DNA from: a virus
IMG/VR virus record: IMGVR_UViG_3300037493_003695
Coordinates: 1-46,488 of that record
DNA: 46,488 nucleotides
Direction: 5' to 3' (one strand)
Under the pieces are notes generated by a model. The model searched no databases, was not told where the DNA came from, and saw only the letters and a program-made list of their open reading frames with translations. This document shows, in pieces, positions 5,033 through 39,857 of the stretch. Position 1 is the first letter of the stretch. The number at the start of each line of letters is the position of its first letter. A program made the position numbers and the translations under genes.

Positions 5033-6601
5033 TTATCTAACCAAACTTACAAAACCTTTTTCAACATGACCAACACCTTTATCATCACGATAATATATTC
5101 TCCAACTATAAACACCTATCTCACAATAATATCCACTATTGAAGTATCCGCCAGTCCATACTTGATTTAATGATGTCAATCTACAGACAACCGCACCCCA
5201 TCTATTATAAATCTCCATTTCAGGTTCATAGATATTAAATCCTTTGATACTGAAAACATCATTTAACCCATCACCATTAGGTGTGAAAGAATTGGGAACA
5301 TAGATTCTATAACAAGAAGTTGTTTCAATATTAATTGAATAATCATCACTTAAACATCCCCTATCATCAACCCCAAATACTGAAATAGTATGAACAGTTG
5401 TTGAGTCAGGCCAAAATAAAGATATTTGATTTGAATTATCTGATTGTACGATACCGTCAACCGACCAATAATATGTTACTCCAACAGAATCCTCAACCGT
5501 ATAATAATGATTACTAAAATCAGTACATAGGTCAATCAATAAACCATCATTTGTTATTGGGAAAGGTGGAAAATATCCTCTAACGTTAACATCAATAGAA
5601 TCAGTTATCGTACAATTATATTGTGAAACAGTATATTGTGGATAGAAAACACCAGAACCAAGAGGCTCAAATAAATTACCCGTAACATAAGGTGAATCCC
5701 ACGTACCATTAGGTGGTTGAGCGTTTAATAATACAGTTTCTGATGGACATAAATAATACGAACTATCAAAAACAATCGTTGGGTCATCCAAAGTAATGTC
5801 AACACTAACAGGGTCACCAATACATCCTTGTGAATTAGTTTCAGTTACAGATAATGTATAAGTACCAACAACATCACCCCATAATACTTCAGTGAAAGGT
5901 TGACCATCAACAGTAGTTACTCCACCACCAGTTAATTCCCAATCATATGTTGAACCAAGAGTCGGTATTACAAAATAATCGTCAGATGTGGAAACACATA
6001 ACGTATCATTGGAAAATGAAATAGGTGGGGTCACAACGTTATTTCCATCAACAACACCATTAAATACCACATAAGGAGCATCAAAACAAGATTCTGTACC
6101 CCAACTACCCATAGTACCATCTGCAAATGTTGAAACTTCAATTAATAAAGATAACGGGTCACATTGGTCGGTAACAACAAGGTTAACAGAAAAAGTCCAA
6201 TCACATATAGTTCCAAAATCACCCCAGTCATTTCCTGGGTTACCATCAGTAGGTCCTTGTGGTCCCTCGTAGAAATAACCCGGACCCTCAATCATTCCTG
6301 TTGAATTTGATGTAACACTTTCAACCCAAATCCACGTCCCATTTAAAGAACAGTTACCCGGTTCAGAAACAGGTGAATAAGAAACCCAACCATTTCCTAA
6401 ATTAAGTGAAAACCCCTCAACCCAATTAGACCCAAACTGAGTTCCATTCCAACCATTCATAGTAAAAGTCATAGTAACAACAGTACCAGGAGAATAACCA
6501 CCACCAACAGGCGCCGGACTTAAAACTGCCGACTGTATTCCTACACATTGGGAAAATACAAATGATGGGACAAGTAATAATAAAAATAAAAGTTTTTTCA
6601 T
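5033..6601 (-). CDS. Secreted surface protein with type IX secretion (CHU_C, type B) C-terminal domain
   Basis: 522 residues. Residues 1-18 (MKKLLFLLLLVPSFVFSQ) are a Sec signal peptide. The middle is a series of Ig/PKD-like beta modules rich in G, T, S, D and paired Cys. The last ~90 residues carry the type B sorting signature: NSFTPNGDGLNDVFSIKGF, then MEIYNRWGAVVCR and a final VEKGFVSLVR strand. This domain sends proteins through the T9SS in Bacteroidetes and is removed on export; the host would have to supply the machinery. The centre could bind sugar or protein. A TTGACT-N17-TATAAT promoter ends 9 nt upstream. A cargo gene taken from a host is the likely origin. Could mask receptors or alter adhesion; not shown. 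Confidence 0.85.
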   Translation of the reverse strand: MKKLLFLLLLVPSFVFSQCVGIQSAVLSPAPVGGGYSPGTVVTMTFTMNGWNGTQFGSNWVEGFSLNLGNGWVSYSPVSEPGNCSLNGTWIWVESVTSNSTGMIEGPGYFYEGPQGPTDGNPGNDWGDFGTICDWTFSVNLVVTDQCDPLSLLIEVSTFADGTMGSWGTESCFDAPYVVFNGVVDGNNVVTPPISFSNDTLCVSTSDDYFVIPTLGSTYDWELTGGGVTTVDGQPFTEVLWGDVVGTYTLSVTETNSQGCIGDPVSVDITLDDPTIVFDSSYYLCPSETVLLNAQPPNGTWDSPYVTGNLFEPLGSGVFYPQYTVSQYNCTITDSIDVNVRGYFPPFPITNDGLLIDLCTDFSNHYYTVEDSVGVTYYWSVDGIVQSDNSNQISLFWPDSTTVHTISVFGVDDRGCLSDDYSINIETTSCYRIYVPNSFTPNGDGLNDVFSIKGFNIYEPEMEIYNRWGAVVCRLTSLNQVWTGGYFNSGYYCEIGVYSWRIYYRDDKGVGHVEKGFVSLVR

Positions 6602-13898: not shown

Positions 13899-13972
13899 TA
13901 GTCCCTGAGGGATTCGAACCACGTGGCACAAGGTGTTTCAAACCTATGCTCTACCTTCTGAGCTACTTCTTC
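13899..13972 (-). tRNA. Degenerate tRNA-like gene, Phe-type anticodon (GAA)
   Basis: The 5' half is tRNA-like: T8 A9, D-stem GCTC/GAGC, anticodon stem AGGT/ACCT with loop TTGAAAC (GAA). The 3' half has a T-loop TTCGAAT but its stem (CGTGG/CCCTC) pairs at only two or three positions, and the acceptor ends GAAGAAG and AGGGACT do not pair. A functional tRNA-Phe is already present at 8364-8439. It lies at the 3' end of the structured RNA at 13973-14445, so it is either a pseudogene or that RNA's tRNA-like tail. Confidence 0.45.
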
Positions 13973-14445
13973 ATATAAGTTAAAGGTCGCCTTCCCTGTC
14001 CGTGTGGTAATTCACGAGACGACCTTTGGTTTTAGTATTTACCATCAATAGTATTTCTTCGGATATGCCCCAAGAGAGTGGGACCGTAGTAACCATCCAC
14101 CGAAGACCTGTACTCTCACACTCCGTCCATATTTACTAAGTTAATCAGATTAGTCATAACCTTTCAGATATATCGTTTAGTGATACCCTCAGGACATCTT
14201 CTCCATACCCCCAAAGTTACGTGGGTGGTCTCACTAAGAAGATAACAGTGTATATTGTAAGATTGTTCAGTATTCTTACAACTTGTGGATTGTATTACAA
14301 CCATTTAAGGTTCCTAACCCCTTCCATCCATAATTGGGGTATCTGATTCAAGTTTGTATAGCCTCCCCCATAGCCTTGGAGCCTTCCCGCCAGGTTCACA
14401 CTGTCCAACCTCAGATAAACGGTATTGTGGGGTCTTCTTTGCAAA
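13973..14445 (-). ncRNA. ~470-nt structured RNA with two predicted pseudoknots, unknown class
   Basis: No open frame worth calling. Pairings found by eye: 14340-14346 with 14411-14417 (TATCTGA/TCAGATA) closing a multibranch loop; 14317-14321 with 14336-14340; 14255-14262 with 14274-14281 (8 pairs). Crossing pair 1: 14177-14183 with 14231-14237 and 14196-14202 with 14237-14243. Crossing pair 2: 14056-14062 with 14100-14106 and 14074-14079 with 14112-14117. Also 14135-14139 with 14150-14154 and an 8-pair hairpin 13982-13989 with 14020-14027. It follows the 14446-14811 gene, whose promoter may transcribe it, and ends in a tRNA-like sequence. Its position beside tRNAs recalls GOLLD and ROOL RNAs, but I see no sequence that identifies either. 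Confidence 0.65.
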
Positions 14446-14811
14446 TTAGATTACTTCGGAGATTGCTTCGTCAGCAAAATCCATCATCACATCGGTTTCA
14501 ACATTGTAGGTTGCTTCATTGAAAGCATCTTTTAACAAATCTTCATCAATGGTTGGTGTAATTCTATTACCTTCTACGTCAAATGTAACAAGATTTTCGT
14601 GGTCAAGTGAATTATACATTTCTTCAAAGATATGTTCATTGATTTTGGTGGTATATTCAACCAAGAAGTTTTCAAGTTGTTCTCGTGTGAAAACGATATC
14701 ACCCTCTTCATTTTCAATACCTGCATCAGATTTAACTTCATTTAATTGTGATTGGATTTCATTCAATTTCTCAATCAACTCAGCGTTTTGTTTTTTGTCT
14801 TTTTTACTCAT
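14446..14811 (-). CDS. Small acidic coiled-coil protein, unknown function
   Basis: 121 residues from the ATG at 14811 (MSKKDKKQNAELIEKLNEIQ); another in-frame ATG three codons upstream at 14820 is also possible. Residues ~8-32 are a likely coiled coil, the rest is very acidic and helical (FLVEYTTKINEHIFEEMYNS, DFADEAISEVI). No signal peptide, membrane span or catalytic motif. A host-type promoter lies ~30 nt upstream and the structured RNA follows directly, so both may share one transcript. Confidence 0.65.
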   Translation of the reverse strand: MSKKDKKQNAELIEKLNEIQSQLNEVKSDAGIENEEGDIVFTREQLENFLVEYTTKINEHIFEEMYNSLDHENLVTFDVEGNRITPTIDEDLLKDAFNEATYNVETDVMMDFADEAISEVI

Positions 14812-14843
14812 AATATTCATTTTTTGGGTTTTTATTTCTTTTA

Positions 14844-14875
14844 CAAAGATACAATATATTTTTTAAACTATCAAA
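14844..14875 (-). promoter_or_regulatory. Bacteroidetes-type promoter
   Basis: TTTG, 20-nt spacer, TATCTTTG on the minus strand, upstream of the 14446-14811 gene and probably of the structured RNA behind it. Confidence 0.65.
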
Positions 14876-30543: not shown

Positions 30544-32406
30544 TTATTTTTTAACTTCTTCAAAATCAACATCAGATACTTCAGAATCTTGTTCGGTCAT
30601 GTTCTCTTCACCTTGACCATAAAGTGTTGAACTTATCTCTTGGAATGTTGAATTCAATTTATCCATGTTAACCTTAATATCTTCAACATTTCTTTCTAAA
30701 TGTGACTTTTTCAATTCATCAAGTGCGGTATTGATATCTGATTTTTGAGTTTCAGTTAGTTTATCATCTAAATCTTTTAATGTTTTTTCAATTGAAAAGA
30801 TTAGTGAATCCGCCTGATTTATTGTTTCAGCATCTTCTTTCGCCTTTTTATCAGATTCAGCGTTCATCTCAGCTTCTTTTCTCATGTTTTCAATTTCTTC
30901 TTTTGAAAGTCCTGAAGATGCCTCAATTCTAATGGTTTGTTTCTTATCCGTTCCTTTATCAACTGCCGATACATTAATGATACCATTTGCATCAATATCA
31001 AATATCACTTCAATTTGTGGAACCCCTCTCATTGATGGTGGAATACCGTCCAAGTGGAATCGTCCAATGGTTCGGTTATCTTTAGCCATTGCTCTTTCAC
31101 CTTGTAATACGTGGATTTCAACTGTTGGTTGGTTATCAACTGCGGTTGAGAATACTTGTGATTTCTTGGTTGGGATTGTGGTGTTTGCCTCAATTAATTT
31201 TGTGAATACTCCACCCATAGTTTCAATACCTAATGAAAGTGGGGTTACGTCTAACAACAATACATCTTTAACATCACCCGCTAATACTCCCGCTTGGATA
31301 GCAGCTCCAAGAGCAACAACTTCATCAGGATTAACACCTTTTGACGGTTCTTTACCAAAAAACTTCTTAACCGATTCTTGGATTGCCGGAATACGTGTTG
31401 TTCCACCAACCAAAATGATTTCATCAATATCGGTTGTCTTAAGTCCTGCGTTCTTCAAAGCCGACTTACAAGGAGCAATAGTTCTTTCAACCAAACTATC
31501 AACAAGTTGTTCAAATTTGGCTTTAGACAATGTTCTTACCAAGTGTTTCGGTATACCATCAACAGGCATAATGTATGGTAAGTTAATCTCAGTAGATGGT
31601 GAAGAAGATAATTCAATCTTCGCCTTCTCAGCTCCTTCACGAAGACGTTGAAGAGCCATAGCATCTTTTGTCAAGTCAATTCCGTTTTCGTCTTTGAATT
31701 CGGTTACTAACCAATCAATGATTGCTTGGTCAAAGTCATCACCACCAAGGTGTGTATCACCATCGGTAGATAATACCTCAAATACACCATCACCTAACTC
31801 CAAAACTGATACGTCATGAGTTCCACCACCACAGTCAAACACAACAATCTTCATCTCTTTAGATTGTTTGTCAAGACCATAAGCAAGTGCTGCCGCGGTT
31901 GGTTCATTAACAATTCTCATCACCTTCAACCCCGCAATCTCACCAGCCTCTTTTGTAGCCTGACGTTGAGCGTCGTTAAAGTAAGCCGGAACTGTGATAA
32001 CCGCCTCAGTTACCTCTGAACCCAAATAATCTTCAGCAGTTTGTTTCATCTTCTGAAGAACCATTGCTGAAATTTCTTGTGGAGAATACTCCTTACCGTC
32101 AATCTCAACACGAGGAGTTCCTTTACTGTTCACCACTTTATAGGGAACACGTTTAACCTCACCCTTACTTTCATCAAAGCTACTTCCCATGAAACGCTTG
32201 ATAGATGAAATAGTTTTATCAGGATTAGTAACCGCCTGACGTTTAGCCGGGTCACCAACCTTTCTCTCACCACCATTTAAGAATCCTACAATTGAAGGGG
32301 TGGTTCTTTTTCCTTCACTGTTTGTAATAACAACTGGTTCGTTACCTTCCATTACGGCAACACATGAATTAGTTGTTCCAAGGTCAATACCTATTATTTT
32401 TCCCAT
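30544..32406 (-). CDS. dnaK: Hsp70 chaperone DnaK
   Basis: 620 residues, full length. ATPase domain: [13 protein letters not shown] (phosphate 1), [28 protein letters not shown] (phosphate 2) and [13 protein letters not shown] (adenosine). Interdomain linker [12 protein letters not shown], then substrate-binding strands and a helical lid ending in an acidic tail ([17 protein letters not shown]). It folds new or stressed proteins with a J-protein and GrpE, neither of which is visible here, so host partners are implied. TTGACT-N17-TATAAT lies ~22 nt upstream of the ATG. One of several proteostasis genes (clpP, FKBP). Confidence 0.97.
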
Positions 32407-36328: not shown

Positions 36329-37657
36329 TTATTTTATTTTTATTTTCATTTTGGTTCCACCTTCAATTTTTTCACAACTCAATTTAAAACCATGTTCTTC
36401 TAATATTGCAACACAGATATTCAATCCAAGACCCTTCTCGTCACCAGTGACATTAGCCTTCTTTGAATATTTTGTTAAATGTTTTTCAAGTTGTTTTTGT
36501 GAGAATCCTTTACCATTGTCCTCAACTATTAAATATTCTTCTTCGTTATATATTTTAACTTTTTTTACTTCACTATCGTTATATGACAACCCATTTTTAA
36601 TTAAATTTTCAACCGCATTACAGAATAAAGTTTCATTTACCTCCATATCACCCAAGTCAGATATCTCAACTTGTGAACTGTATGAATTTGGTGAAATGTA
36701 TTTCCATATCAAATCTTTAGTATTAACCACAGATTTATTTAATACAACATTTTGTTTAACAAGATTAGTGAATTCATATACACTCTTATATACTCTTTGT
36801 GTATGACTTAACCCTTCCTTAACCATCTTTAACGCTCCTTCAATCTTTAATCTTTGGATGTCTTCAGTGGTTAATCTCTTTTCTAACGAAGTAATACCTC
36901 TTGGTATATAAGTGTTAATACCTGAGTGCATATCGTGACGAATTATTCTTGCGGCGTGTTCCAAGTAACTATTCTTCTTAGCAATATCTGTAAGTTGTTG
37001 TTCAATCTCAACATCTTGTACATGTATTCTCTTTCTTTGAAGAACAATTGCTAATATTAAACCAAATAATGCCAATACACCCAAAGCAATATAAAGGTAT
37101 TTCTTTAAGGCCTCTCTTTGTTGTTCTAAATCTGTTTTTTGATTTATTAAGTTTCCATTTGCATCTGTTAAGTTACCGGTCTCCAAAGTCAAACCAATGA
37201 TATTCTTTTCTTTACCTAACGAACCGATTGTATTTTCTTTGGATTTAATAAGTTCTTCATTTCTAACAGCTTGAGCCAATAACGAATCTCGTTCTGCGGT
37301 AAGTTTATTAATCTTGTTATCAATTTGAACTAATACATTTTTTAAATCTTCTTTAGGTAAATCAGTATACGATTTTGGTAAGTCAGTTAAAAACTGTAAG
37401 TCTTCAGCAATACTTGCTAAATCACTTTCAGACAATTTAGTTTCATCAACTGGTTCAGGTTCAGGTGGAATCCAAGTTGTAACGATTTCTTGTATATCCA
37501 TAGCCGCAACTTGACTAGTATCACCATCAATCTGTAAATTATCGTTAGACCATGAAACGTCAATTCCGTCAACTAATGTATCGTTGTAATTCAAATTTTG
37601 TGAGTGTAAACCTGTCGATACGAGTGTTACTAAAATCAATAATATTATCTTTTTCAT
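36329..37657 (-). CDS. Sensor histidine kinase 2 (exported sensor domain)
   Basis: 442 residues. Signal peptide ~1-19, an external region ~20-185 containing a coiled coil (KINKLTAERDSLLAQAVRNE), membrane helix ~187-207 (YLYIALGVLALFGLILAIVL), then cytoplasmic DHp and ATPase domains. Phospho-His241 lies in IIRHDMHSGINTY; N-box NLIKNGLSYND, G1 VEDNGKGFS, G2 DEKGLGLNI. From the DHp domain on it is strongly similar to kinase 1, so one is a copy of the other with another sensor. It overlaps the exported-protein gene by 1 nt, suggesting that protein is a sensing partner. Confidence 0.93.
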   Translation of the reverse strand: MKKIILLILVTLVSTGLHSQNLNYNDTLVDGIDVSWSNDNLQIDGDTSQVAAMDIQEIVTTWIPPEPEPVDETKLSESDLASIAEDLQFLTDLPKSYTDLPKEDLKNVLVQIDNKINKLTAERDSLLAQAVRNEELIKSKENTIGSLGKEKNIIGLTLETGNLTDANGNLINQKTDLEQQREALKKYLYIALGVLALFGLILAIVLQRKRIHVQDVEIEQQLTDIAKKNSYLEHAARIIRHDMHSGINTYIPRGITSLEKRLTTEDIQRLKIEGALKMVKEGLSHTQRVYKSVYEFTNLVKQNVVLNKSVVNTKDLIWKYISPNSYSSQVEISDLGDMEVNETLFCNAVENLIKNGLSYNDSEVKKVKIYNEEEYLIVEDNGKGFSQKQLEKHLTKYSKKANVTGDEKGLGLNICVAILEEHGFKLSCEKIEGGTKMKIKIK

Positions 37658-38274
37658 TACTTTTTTAATTCTTCTTTTAATAAACTTTTATTTTTCCAAA
37701 TCCATGATTCATATCTTCGAGTTATACCATTAAAATCAAGAAACTTTAAATTGTGAAAATAATTTGTTGCTGGTGCGAACTGCATATCAAACTCTTCTCT
37801 GAATTTTTTATATTCTTCATACTCACTTTTAGTCATTTTTTCAAAAACAAGAATTTTTCCGTATTCATGAGTGTAAAGATTGTAATCATCTAAATTCACA
37901 AAATATAACTTGTTGTATGGGGGTATAGTGTATATGAACGCTCCATTTGTAGCGTATTCCCAAAGAGTCATATTCAATTCATCAGCCCATTTATATGTTG
38001 TATCTGCTACATATTTGATACTATCTAACATGTTAGGTATATTTTCAACAATGTTATTTAAACTATCTATCTTATTATTTAAGGATGTAATTTTTTTACC
38101 TTGTTCTCTAATAATCCTTCTTTGTGTTTCAATTGCTTTATTAATATCAACAGATTGTTTAACAGATAGGATAACAACAGAGTCACCTCTATAGATTGTT
38201 TGAATTGGGTATTTAATTTGACTAAACCCAAACAAAGAAATTGTTAAGAAAATAAAAGTTAGTAATGTTTTCAT
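37657..38274 (-). CDS. Exported protein with coiled coil (kinase operon)
   Basis: 205 residues. Sec signal peptide MKTLLTFIFLTISLFGFSQ, no lipobox and no later membrane helix, so it is periplasmic or secreted. Residues ~45-80 are a short coiled coil (IREQGKKITSLNNKIDSLNN), followed by an aromatic-rich globular part (WADELNMTLWEYATNGAFIY, YFHNLKFLDFNGITRRYESW). Overlaps kinase 1 by 4 nt and kinase 2 by 1 nt. Because both kinases face the periplasm, a ligand or sensor-modulator role is likely. Confidence 0.7.
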   Translation of the reverse strand: MKTLLTFIFLTISLFGFSQIKYPIQTIYRGDSVVILSVKQSVDINKAIETQRRIIREQGKKITSLNNKIDSLNNIVENIPNMLDSIKYVADTTYKWADELNMTLWEYATNGAFIYTIPPYNKLYFVNLDDYNLYTHEYGKILVFEKMTKSEYEEYKKFREEFDMQFAPATNYFHNLKFLDFNGITRRYESWIWKNKSLLKEELKK

Positions 38275-39857
38275 TTAAATTTGATTTTTATTTTAGTTCC
38301 TGTTTCATTTTTTTCACAGGTTATTTTAAATCCGTGTTCTTCTAAAATAGCGACACATATGTTAAGACCCAATCCAGTCCCCGATTCTTTTTGACCTTCT
38401 TTTCTCGTATATGGTTTAGACAAATAATTAAAATCTTCTTGGGTAATACCTCTTCCATTATCTTGGATATAAATGGAATCCTCATCAGAAGATATCTCAA
38501 CAAACTTGGTGTCTGAATCATTATACTTTAAACCATTTCTAATTAGATTATCAACCGCTGTACAAATTAATGCTTCATTAACTTCAATCGTTGGTAGGTT
38601 ATCATCCAACATAACCTGACTTATATAAGCCGTCGAGGACAAATAGTCCTTGAGTATGTCCTTGATATTACATTCAGTTTTATTTAATACCACATCCTTC
38701 TTAACAAGGTTGGTAAATTCATAAACACCTTTATAAACTTTCTGTGAATGTTTAAGTCCTTCCTTAATCATTTTAAGTGGAGCCTCAATTTTAAGTTTAA
38801 CAATATCTTCTTGAGTTAATCTTCTCTCCAACGAGTTAACACCCCTTGGCATATAGGTGTTAATACCTGAATGCATATCGTGTCTTAATATCTTGGCAGC
38901 ATGTTCCAAGTATGTATTCTTTCTTTCAATCTCTTGTGATTGTAAAACTTTATCGGTAATATCTATAGCAATTTTCATAACTCTAATCACCTGACCACTA
39001 TTATCTAAAATTGGATTATATGTTGCTTGTAACCAAATTTCCTCACCATTTTTTTTAATTCTATTAAATTGTTCAGATATAAAATCCCCATTTTTTAATT
39101 TAGTCCAGAATTCTTTATACTCATCTGATTGTGAATAGTCTTCTGTCAAGAATATACTGTGATGATTCCCCTTTAATTCTTTTAGAGTATAACCCATAGA
39201 GTTACAAAAGTTTTGGTTGGCATAAATTATATTCCCTGATAAATCAAATTCAATTACCGCATTAGATTGGTTAATAGCATTCATTCTATTTCTAATATCC
39301 AATTCCTTTTTCTTAAGCTCTGTGATATCTTGTCTGATAGATGAAAAACCATCTAATCTCCCATCAGTTCCAAATCTTGCCCTGATGTATGTATCAACAT
39401 AATATAAACTACCATCTTTAGCTTTATTAGTTACCACATCATTCCATATCTCACCCTTCATAACTGTCTCATACATTTTTCCCCAATATCCATCAGGTTG
39501 TGTACCTGAATTAACTATTGAATGGTCTTTACCAATTACTTCTTCAAGTTTCCATCCTGAAACCTTTTCAAACTTATCATTAACATAAGTTATCTTACCC
39601 TTTCTATCGGTAACCGATATGATGGCAGCTTTATCAATGAACTTGTCAGCATCATCAAGTTTTTTAGATTGTTCACCAGTTATTCCACGAACTATTAAAA
39701 TAAAAAGAGGAATAAATAATATAAAACAAATATATTCAACACCACGTGTAAATCTTGTAGATTCAATTGTCTCTAATAAAACTGATGTTTTAACAAAAAA
39801 GAAAACAAACATTATGATAACAGATAAAAGTAAATATATTTTCGTTTTTTTAGTCAT
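38271..39857 (-). CDS. Sensor histidine kinase 1 (two PAS domains)
   Basis: 528 residues. Two N-terminal membrane helices (~7-29, ~42-58), two PAS domains (~75-180 with SVTDRKGKITYVNDKFEKVS, and ~195-300), then DHp with phospho-His326 in KILRHDMHSGINTY and an ATPase domain: N-box NLIRNGLKYND, G1 IQDNGRGIT, G2 ESGTGLGLN. PAS domains usually sense redox, oxygen or small molecules at the membrane. First gene of the operon, started from a TATTTATA late promoter only 4 nt from the ATG, so signalling is switched on late. Phage-coded complete kinases are rare. Confidence 0.94.
   Translation of the reverse strand: MTKKTKIYLLLSVIIMFVFFFVKTSVLLETIESTRFTRGVEYICFILFIPLFILIVRGITGEQSKKLDDADKFIDKAAIISVTDRKGKITYVNDKFEKVSGWKLEEVIGKDHSIVNSGTQPDGYWGKMYETVMKGEIWNDVVTNKAKDGSLYYVDTYIRARFGTDGRLDGFSSIRQDITELKKKELDIRNRMNAINQSNAVIEFDLSGNIIYANQNFCNSMGYTLKELKGNHHSIFLTEDYSQSDEYKEFWTKLKNGDFISEQFNRIKKNGEEIWLQATYNPILDNSGQVIRVMKIAIDITDKVLQSQEIERKNTYLEHAAKILRHDMHSGINTYMPRGVNSLERRLTQEDIVKLKIEAPLKMIKEGLKHSQKVYKGVYEFTNLVKKDVVLNKTECNIKDILKDYLSSTAYISQVMLDDNLPTIEVNEALICTAVDNLIRNGLKYNDSDTKFVEISSDEDSIYIQDNGRGITQEDFNYLSKPYTRKEGQKESGTGLGLNICVAILEEHGFKITCEKNETGTKIKIKFK

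Follow-up and report, generated by a model that had tools for sequence, protein, structure and literature searches.

The window analyzed here, a stretch of 46,488 nucleotides from an IMG/VR virus record of about 46 kb, carries a structured RNA of about 467 nt on its minus strand (14439 to 13973), without any overlapping gene. All features of the locus described below lie on this strand, and positions within the RNA are given in RNA numbering (RNA position p corresponds to window position 14440 - p). Read along the minus strand, a gene for a 124-amino acid protein (14446 to 14820, with the stop codon at 14446) is followed after 6 nt by the RNA, then by a tRNA-Phe-like sequence and a tRNA-Ser gene. 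An earlier note, made from the sequence alone, had located an RNA of about 470 nt at 13899 to 14445, between a small protein gene and tRNA genes; position and length agree with our results, but the RNA does not run to 13899. The 124-amino acid protein has no match in Pfam or PHROG. Upstream of its gene, the motif TAnnTTTG (TATCTTTG, 14844 to 14851) can be read directly from the sequence, and we take it to be a Bacteroidota-type -7 box. This box probably drives the 124-amino acid gene and the RNA jointly.

Relatives were reached through the 124-amino acid neighbor protein. Its 17 relatives define 17 loci, most of which have the same RNA downstream, and pattern scans of conserved stretches, followed by nhmmer profiles, then identified 36 distinct full-length relatives of the RNA in IMG/VR contigs of up to 299 kb. 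Family members range in length from about 410 to 545 nt. Gene and RNA occur together at one locus only in close relatives of the window, and the record of one member (L023) has no match to the 124-amino acid protein at all. No relative of the RNA was found in 84,980 prokaryote genomes or in 50,697 phage records, and additional scans gave no further member. Among isolated phages, blastn with the window query produced weak matches only, mostly to the tRNA part, and blastn with four other members produced none. Rfam 15 reported only tRNAs for the whole window at gathering thresholds, and only tRNAs and chance-level matches for the RNA region at E-values up to 10. We found no published description of the RNA in the literature searched, which covered little of the preprints and subscription papers, where one may exist. 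Together, these observations identify the RNA as a real, previously uncatalogued class of large structured phage RNA.

Some loci have kept only part of the RNA. In L039 (1791 to 1926, minus strand), an internal deletion has fused GACCCC (5' end) to GAGGTC (3' domain), so that the 3' domain alone is left. In L097 (3468 to 3525), the 3' hairpin with its conserved loop stands alone beside a tRNA-Arg gene, and the remainder of the RNA was not detected. With most of the RNA gone from L039 and all but the 3' hairpin gone from L097, the RNA is not strictly needed at every locus. Two further loci (L010 and L011) have only a hairpin and a tRNA where the RNA is found in their relatives.

The carriers are best explained as large tailed phages of Bacteroidota. 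Terminase genes were present in eight of nine large records, and one terminase has its closest isolated relatives among Flavobacterium phages (30% identity). Bacteroidota hosts are also indicated by the TAnnTTTG boxes and by a minus-strand protein (window 5033 to 6601) in which a CHU_C type IX secretion signal was found, along with a weak PKD-like match. The window also encodes, on the minus strand, a complete Hsp70 (DnaK) protein (30544 to 32406) and two histidine-kinase-type HATPase proteins, one with PAS domains (36329 to 39857).

The RNA does not code for protein. Comparison of the members' reading frames revealed none common to the family, and the lengths of the members are spread over all three residues modulo 3; a protein-coding reading was dropped for lack of a common frame, in keeping with the earlier note, which had seen no gene here. 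The note had also judged the helices to be more numerous than expected by chance, and they are: the region contains 13 perfect helices of at least 7 bp, versus 5.9 ± 2.4 in dinucleotide shuffles, of which 1 in 200 reaches 13. The minimum free energy of the region is ordinary (z = -0.08), and thermodynamic stability was set aside as an uninformative criterion. We accept the structure because covariation supports it, which the folding energy does not.

Covariation was evaluated in the alignment of the 36 sequences with our own R-scape-like script, which uses a tree-permutation null, followed by a helix scan. For 14 helices, 97.9% of 2501 cells are paired, versus 36-44% when the partners are slid by one to three columns, and the covariation score is 0.494 versus 0.08-0.10. 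The structure was derived from the same sequences, which makes the slid control somewhat favorable; the counts of two-sided changes do not depend on that alone. Such compensatory changes affect 47 of the 70 pairs, with 444 two-sided cells observed versus 146 after shuffling. These helix counts come from independent counting on a second alignment (A1). Six pairs with E < 0.05 are Watson-Crick or G-U in all 36 sequences (19-30, 104-119, 164-180, 165-179, 259-320 and 336-382), and the few significant combinations that do not pair come from neighbors of these pairs or from close columns. The existence of the RNA and its secondary structure are very likely to be correct as described here.

Beginning at the 5' end, a hairpin at 17-19/30-32 (family 16-21/29-34; window 14408 to 14423) is 95% paired, with two-sided changes in two of three tested pairs, and contains the strongest covarying pair (E < 0.03 under the tree-permutation null); the window copy has one mismatch (G20/A29). 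The CCCC/GGGG hairpin at 101-104/119-122 (14318 to 14339) is 100% paired, with a change from CG to TA in 11 of 36 sequences; ATTATGG is conserved in its loop, and an optional domain of about 35-80 nt directly precedes it in other members. It is followed by a hairpin at 128-131/138-141 (14299 to 14312; 100% paired, three of four pairs compensated) and by one at 158-166/178-186 (14254 to 14282; 99.7% paired, four of nine compensated). The helix 257-261/318-322 (14118 to 14183; 96.5% paired, four of five compensated) closes a variable domain that several members lack. Further downstream, the helix 334-340/378-384 (14056 to 14106; 100% paired, six of seven compensated) encloses both a hairpin at 356-361/368-373 (100% paired, six of six compensated) and the invariant GGTTACTA. 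The 3' terminal stem at 413-420/451-458 (13982 to 14027) comprises 7-12 bp of differing letters in nearly every member; in divergent members it resembles a terminator and has a T run, which the window copy lacks.

Three of these helices match elements proposed in the earlier note. Both of its 8-pair hairpins are real, one at 159-166/178-185 (99% paired in the 36 sequences) and the other being the 3' stem, which is re-paired with other letters in nearly every divergent member; the 7-pair helix is that at 334-340/378-384. Its two crossing helix sets came without coordinates, so that perfect crossing helices in the window fitting the description were tested instead, and most of these were not upheld in relatives. 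GAGAGT/ACTCTC (323-328/361-366) is 72% paired and TTAGTGA/TCACTAA (203-209/257-263) 54% paired, neither being conserved; jointly with two others, they show covariation no better than slid controls, and the actual partner of the ACTCTC loop is 443-447. The exception is ATCTTCT/AGAAGAT (197-203/238-244), which proved real with a shorter core, as the fifth of the pseudoknots described below.

Comparison of the sequences supports at least five pseudoknots. In the first (14360 to 14392), 48-50/61-63 crosses 57-60/77-80; the two helices are 99% and 97% paired, both have two-sided changes, and the variants include GTCT/AGAT and GGCT/GGCT. The second (14192 to 14268) pairs loop 172-176 of hairpin 158-166/178-186 with 244-248 and occurs in the family as GGACA/TGTCC (17 times), GAACA/TGTTC (8 times) and AGACA/TGTCT (4 times), with one mismatch in the window itself (GAACA/TGTCC). 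In the third (13993 to 14077), hairpin loop 363-367 pairs with 443-447 in 100% of sequences with all five pairs compensated (TCTCT/AGAGA, GAATC/GATTC, GAATT/AATTC, GTATC/GATAC and ACTTC/GAAGT). The fourth (14005 to 14044) joins 396-400 to loop 431-435 of the 3' hairpin 423-427/436-440 (89% paired, five of five compensated; TGGTA/TACCA, CGCCA/TGGCG and CACTA/TAGTG). The fifth (14198 to 14250) consists of a hairpin at 190-194/204-208, 100% paired, whose loop 199-202 pairs with 239-242 and varies among members (TCTTC/GAAGA, CTTA/TAAG, CCTTT/AAAGG and ATTCC/GGAAT). Loop pairings remade with new letters, such as 363-367/443-447, are the strongest case for the structure. These loop pairings could form within one molecule or between molecules, two arrangements that covariation cannot separate.

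The RNA commonly adjoins tRNA genes, which are distinct from it. The sequence beyond its 3' end in the window (13899 to 13972) is a broken tRNA-Phe(GAA) gene outside the RNA; it scores 25.7 bits with the Rfam tRNA model, below gathering, is negative with ARAGORN, and has a foreign 3' end unlike its relatives. Intact copies of this gene are found in L003, L010, L011, L019 and L028, where CGTCTTCTTCA pairs with GAAGAAG. Elsewhere in the family, the neighboring tRNA gene is one for Glu, Met, Asp, Ile or Ser, or is found about 600-750 nt off. The suggestion of the earlier note that the tRNA-like end may be part of the RNA was dropped, since the tRNA is intact in relatives and the neighboring tRNA varies. 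In L003, L004, L009 and L013, a segment of about 540-750 nt that contains an open reading frame separates the RNA from tRNA-Phe; in L004 this frame looks ClpP-like by eye. The tRNA array of one member (L094) also contains a freshwater-1 RNA (RF02979, above gathering score; 6397 to 6459, minus strand).

The tRNA start lies 0-3 nt from the aligned 3' end of the RNA in 15 of 36 members, and in L076 and L204 a tRNA ends at most 1 nt from the 5' end. An extra conserved 5' domain of about 66 nt, GAGAACCGTGAGTCCGCGGATGGAAACAAC...GGACGAGCATACGTC inside a variable outer stem whose letters vary in compensation, is present in nine members (L061, L070, L117, L137, L149, L153, L163, L185 and L211). It was found nowhere but before the RNA in the loci examined and gave no Rfam match that we saw. 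In three of the nine (L137, L149 and L163), a tRNA-Ser ends at most 1 nt from it, and in two others (L070 and L211) a promoter box precedes it. Given the flanking tRNAs and the RNA's own promoter boxes, we regard the RNA as an independent unit. It may be excised by tRNA maturation, in which case a discrete RNA would be expected, with AAGACCCC at one end and the 3' stem at the other.

None of the known large RNAs considered here matches it. An Rfam check for GOLLD, ROOL, tmRNA and introns, as the earlier note had proposed, returned no match to the RNA. The GOLLD model (RF02032) found nothing at the RNA at E-values up to 10 or, for some member sequences, up to 3; the test works, as the same records give genuine GOLLD at E-values of about 1e-88 to 1e-100. 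GOLLD is present in 17 of the 34 records with the RNA (6/9 from a first search of ten records, one of them not a member, and 11/25), always at another place, and in 0 of 30 unrelated virus records. Several GOLLD-bearing records are near-copies, which leaves about 13 independent cases. Where both positions were read (ten records), GOLLD and the RNA lie on the same strand, 4.5-29 kb apart. L010 and L011, both fragments, contain GOLLD sequence and lack the RNA at its locus. Common phage ancestry is a sufficient explanation for the co-occurrence, which may only mark lineage. The profile of the RNA did not match GOLLD loci, and no tRNA was found within 1.5 kb of the GOLLD copies with scanned surroundings. 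A comparison of RNA and GOLLD in 12 genomes yielded, as its top entries, one Watson-Crick-type pair and one impossible TT/AA pair, and no long complementary stretch; we judged pairing between the two to be noise or lineage signal.

The likenesses to such RNAs are nevertheless considerable. Like GOLLD, the RNA is large, pseudoknotted, non-coding and phage-borne, in many of the same phages, and it shares the GOLLD trait of being phage- or prophage-encoded, often near tRNA islands; it differs in sequence, size and helices. It also has the traits of 'ornate' phage RNAs, being long, conserved, multi-pseudoknotted, non-coding and covarying. ROOL is likewise a phage RNA near tRNA islands, of about 580 nt and with several pseudoknots. 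Rfam scans of member sequences gave no ROOL match, nor did the ROOL model (RF03087) in ten large records, nine with the RNA, a search in which no positive control responded and which is weak by itself. OLE RNA, which is also large, elaborately folded and well conserved, has no Rfam match at the RNA; it is described as self-assembling (PMC12286853) and as mostly found in Gram-positive extremophiles and anaerobes (PMC12054373). tmRNA (RF00023) similarly combines pseudoknots with a tRNA-like sequence, but the tRNA-like neighbor here is a separate gene, of varying identity or distant; there was no Rfam match to tmRNA at the RNA and no family-wide tag reading frame. The earlier reading, a large RNA that is non-coding, has several pseudoknots and sits in a GOLLD/ROOL-like place, is thus supported.

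We favor an excised structural RNA that acts in trans, perhaps as a multimer, along the lines of GOLLD and ROOL, with a probability of roughly 0.55. We infer that the RNA would be transcribed together with the tRNAs or from a promoter of its own or, in close relatives of the window, downstream of the 124-amino acid gene, and that 5' and 3' maturation of the tRNAs would release it. It may then fold into a compact particle held by the five loop pairings and act in trans during infection as a structural or scaffolding RNA, probably multimeric. The comparison with GOLLD and ROOL is drawn because Kretsch and colleagues (PMC12286853) describe both as nanocages near tRNA islands, of unknown function: GOLLD as a 14-subunit RNA-only nanocage, and ROOL as a symmetric, RNA-only nanocage by cryo-EM. 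By analogy, the RNA might self-assemble as well.

A possible but less probable alternative is an RNA that acts in trans as a decoy or regulator by binding a host protein, the ribosome or a defense component. The RNA is encoded by phages, in surroundings with many genes for translation, and ribosomes are mentioned in GOLLD pull-downs (PMC12286853), but no partner was identified. The words ATTAGATACCC and CTGCGGTTGGA of some members resemble universal 16S words but change freely from member to member and are not conserved in the family, which leaves rRNA mimicry unsupported and led us to reject an rRNA origin.

We consider a catalytic RNA (ribozyme or intron-like) in a tRNA region unlikely. Catalytic cores typically show features seen here, namely pseudoknots and stretches that are invariant and unpaired (such as GGTTACTA), and L010 and L011 lack the RNA yet keep its 3' stem; but no Rfam intron or ribozyme model matches, the RNA ends show no interrupted gene or exon pair, and no homing endonuclease was seen adjoining it. 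Least probable is a cis-regulatory leader or 3' UTR element, as the conserved gene closely preceding the RNA in the window and its close relatives might suggest, given that the neighbors change fully (tRNA arrays, a ClpP-like gene, unknown genes), that the copies in L023 and L139 stand alone with their own Bacteroidota-type promoter box 8-13 nt upstream, that the RNA is far larger than known leaders, and that many members end in a terminator-like hairpin followed by T.

A more specific version of the structural, trans-acting reading is doubtful, namely that closed or ring-like particles of this RNA self-assemble alongside GOLLD during a single infection, giving two RNA compartments or one mixed compartment. 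Only a few known natural RNAs are of comparable size and complexity. The presence of this RNA in GOLLD phages, often a few kb away, provides a comparative handle on the roles of such RNAs in large phages, and the tested structural model of 14 helices and five pseudoknots is ready for probing and cryo-EM.
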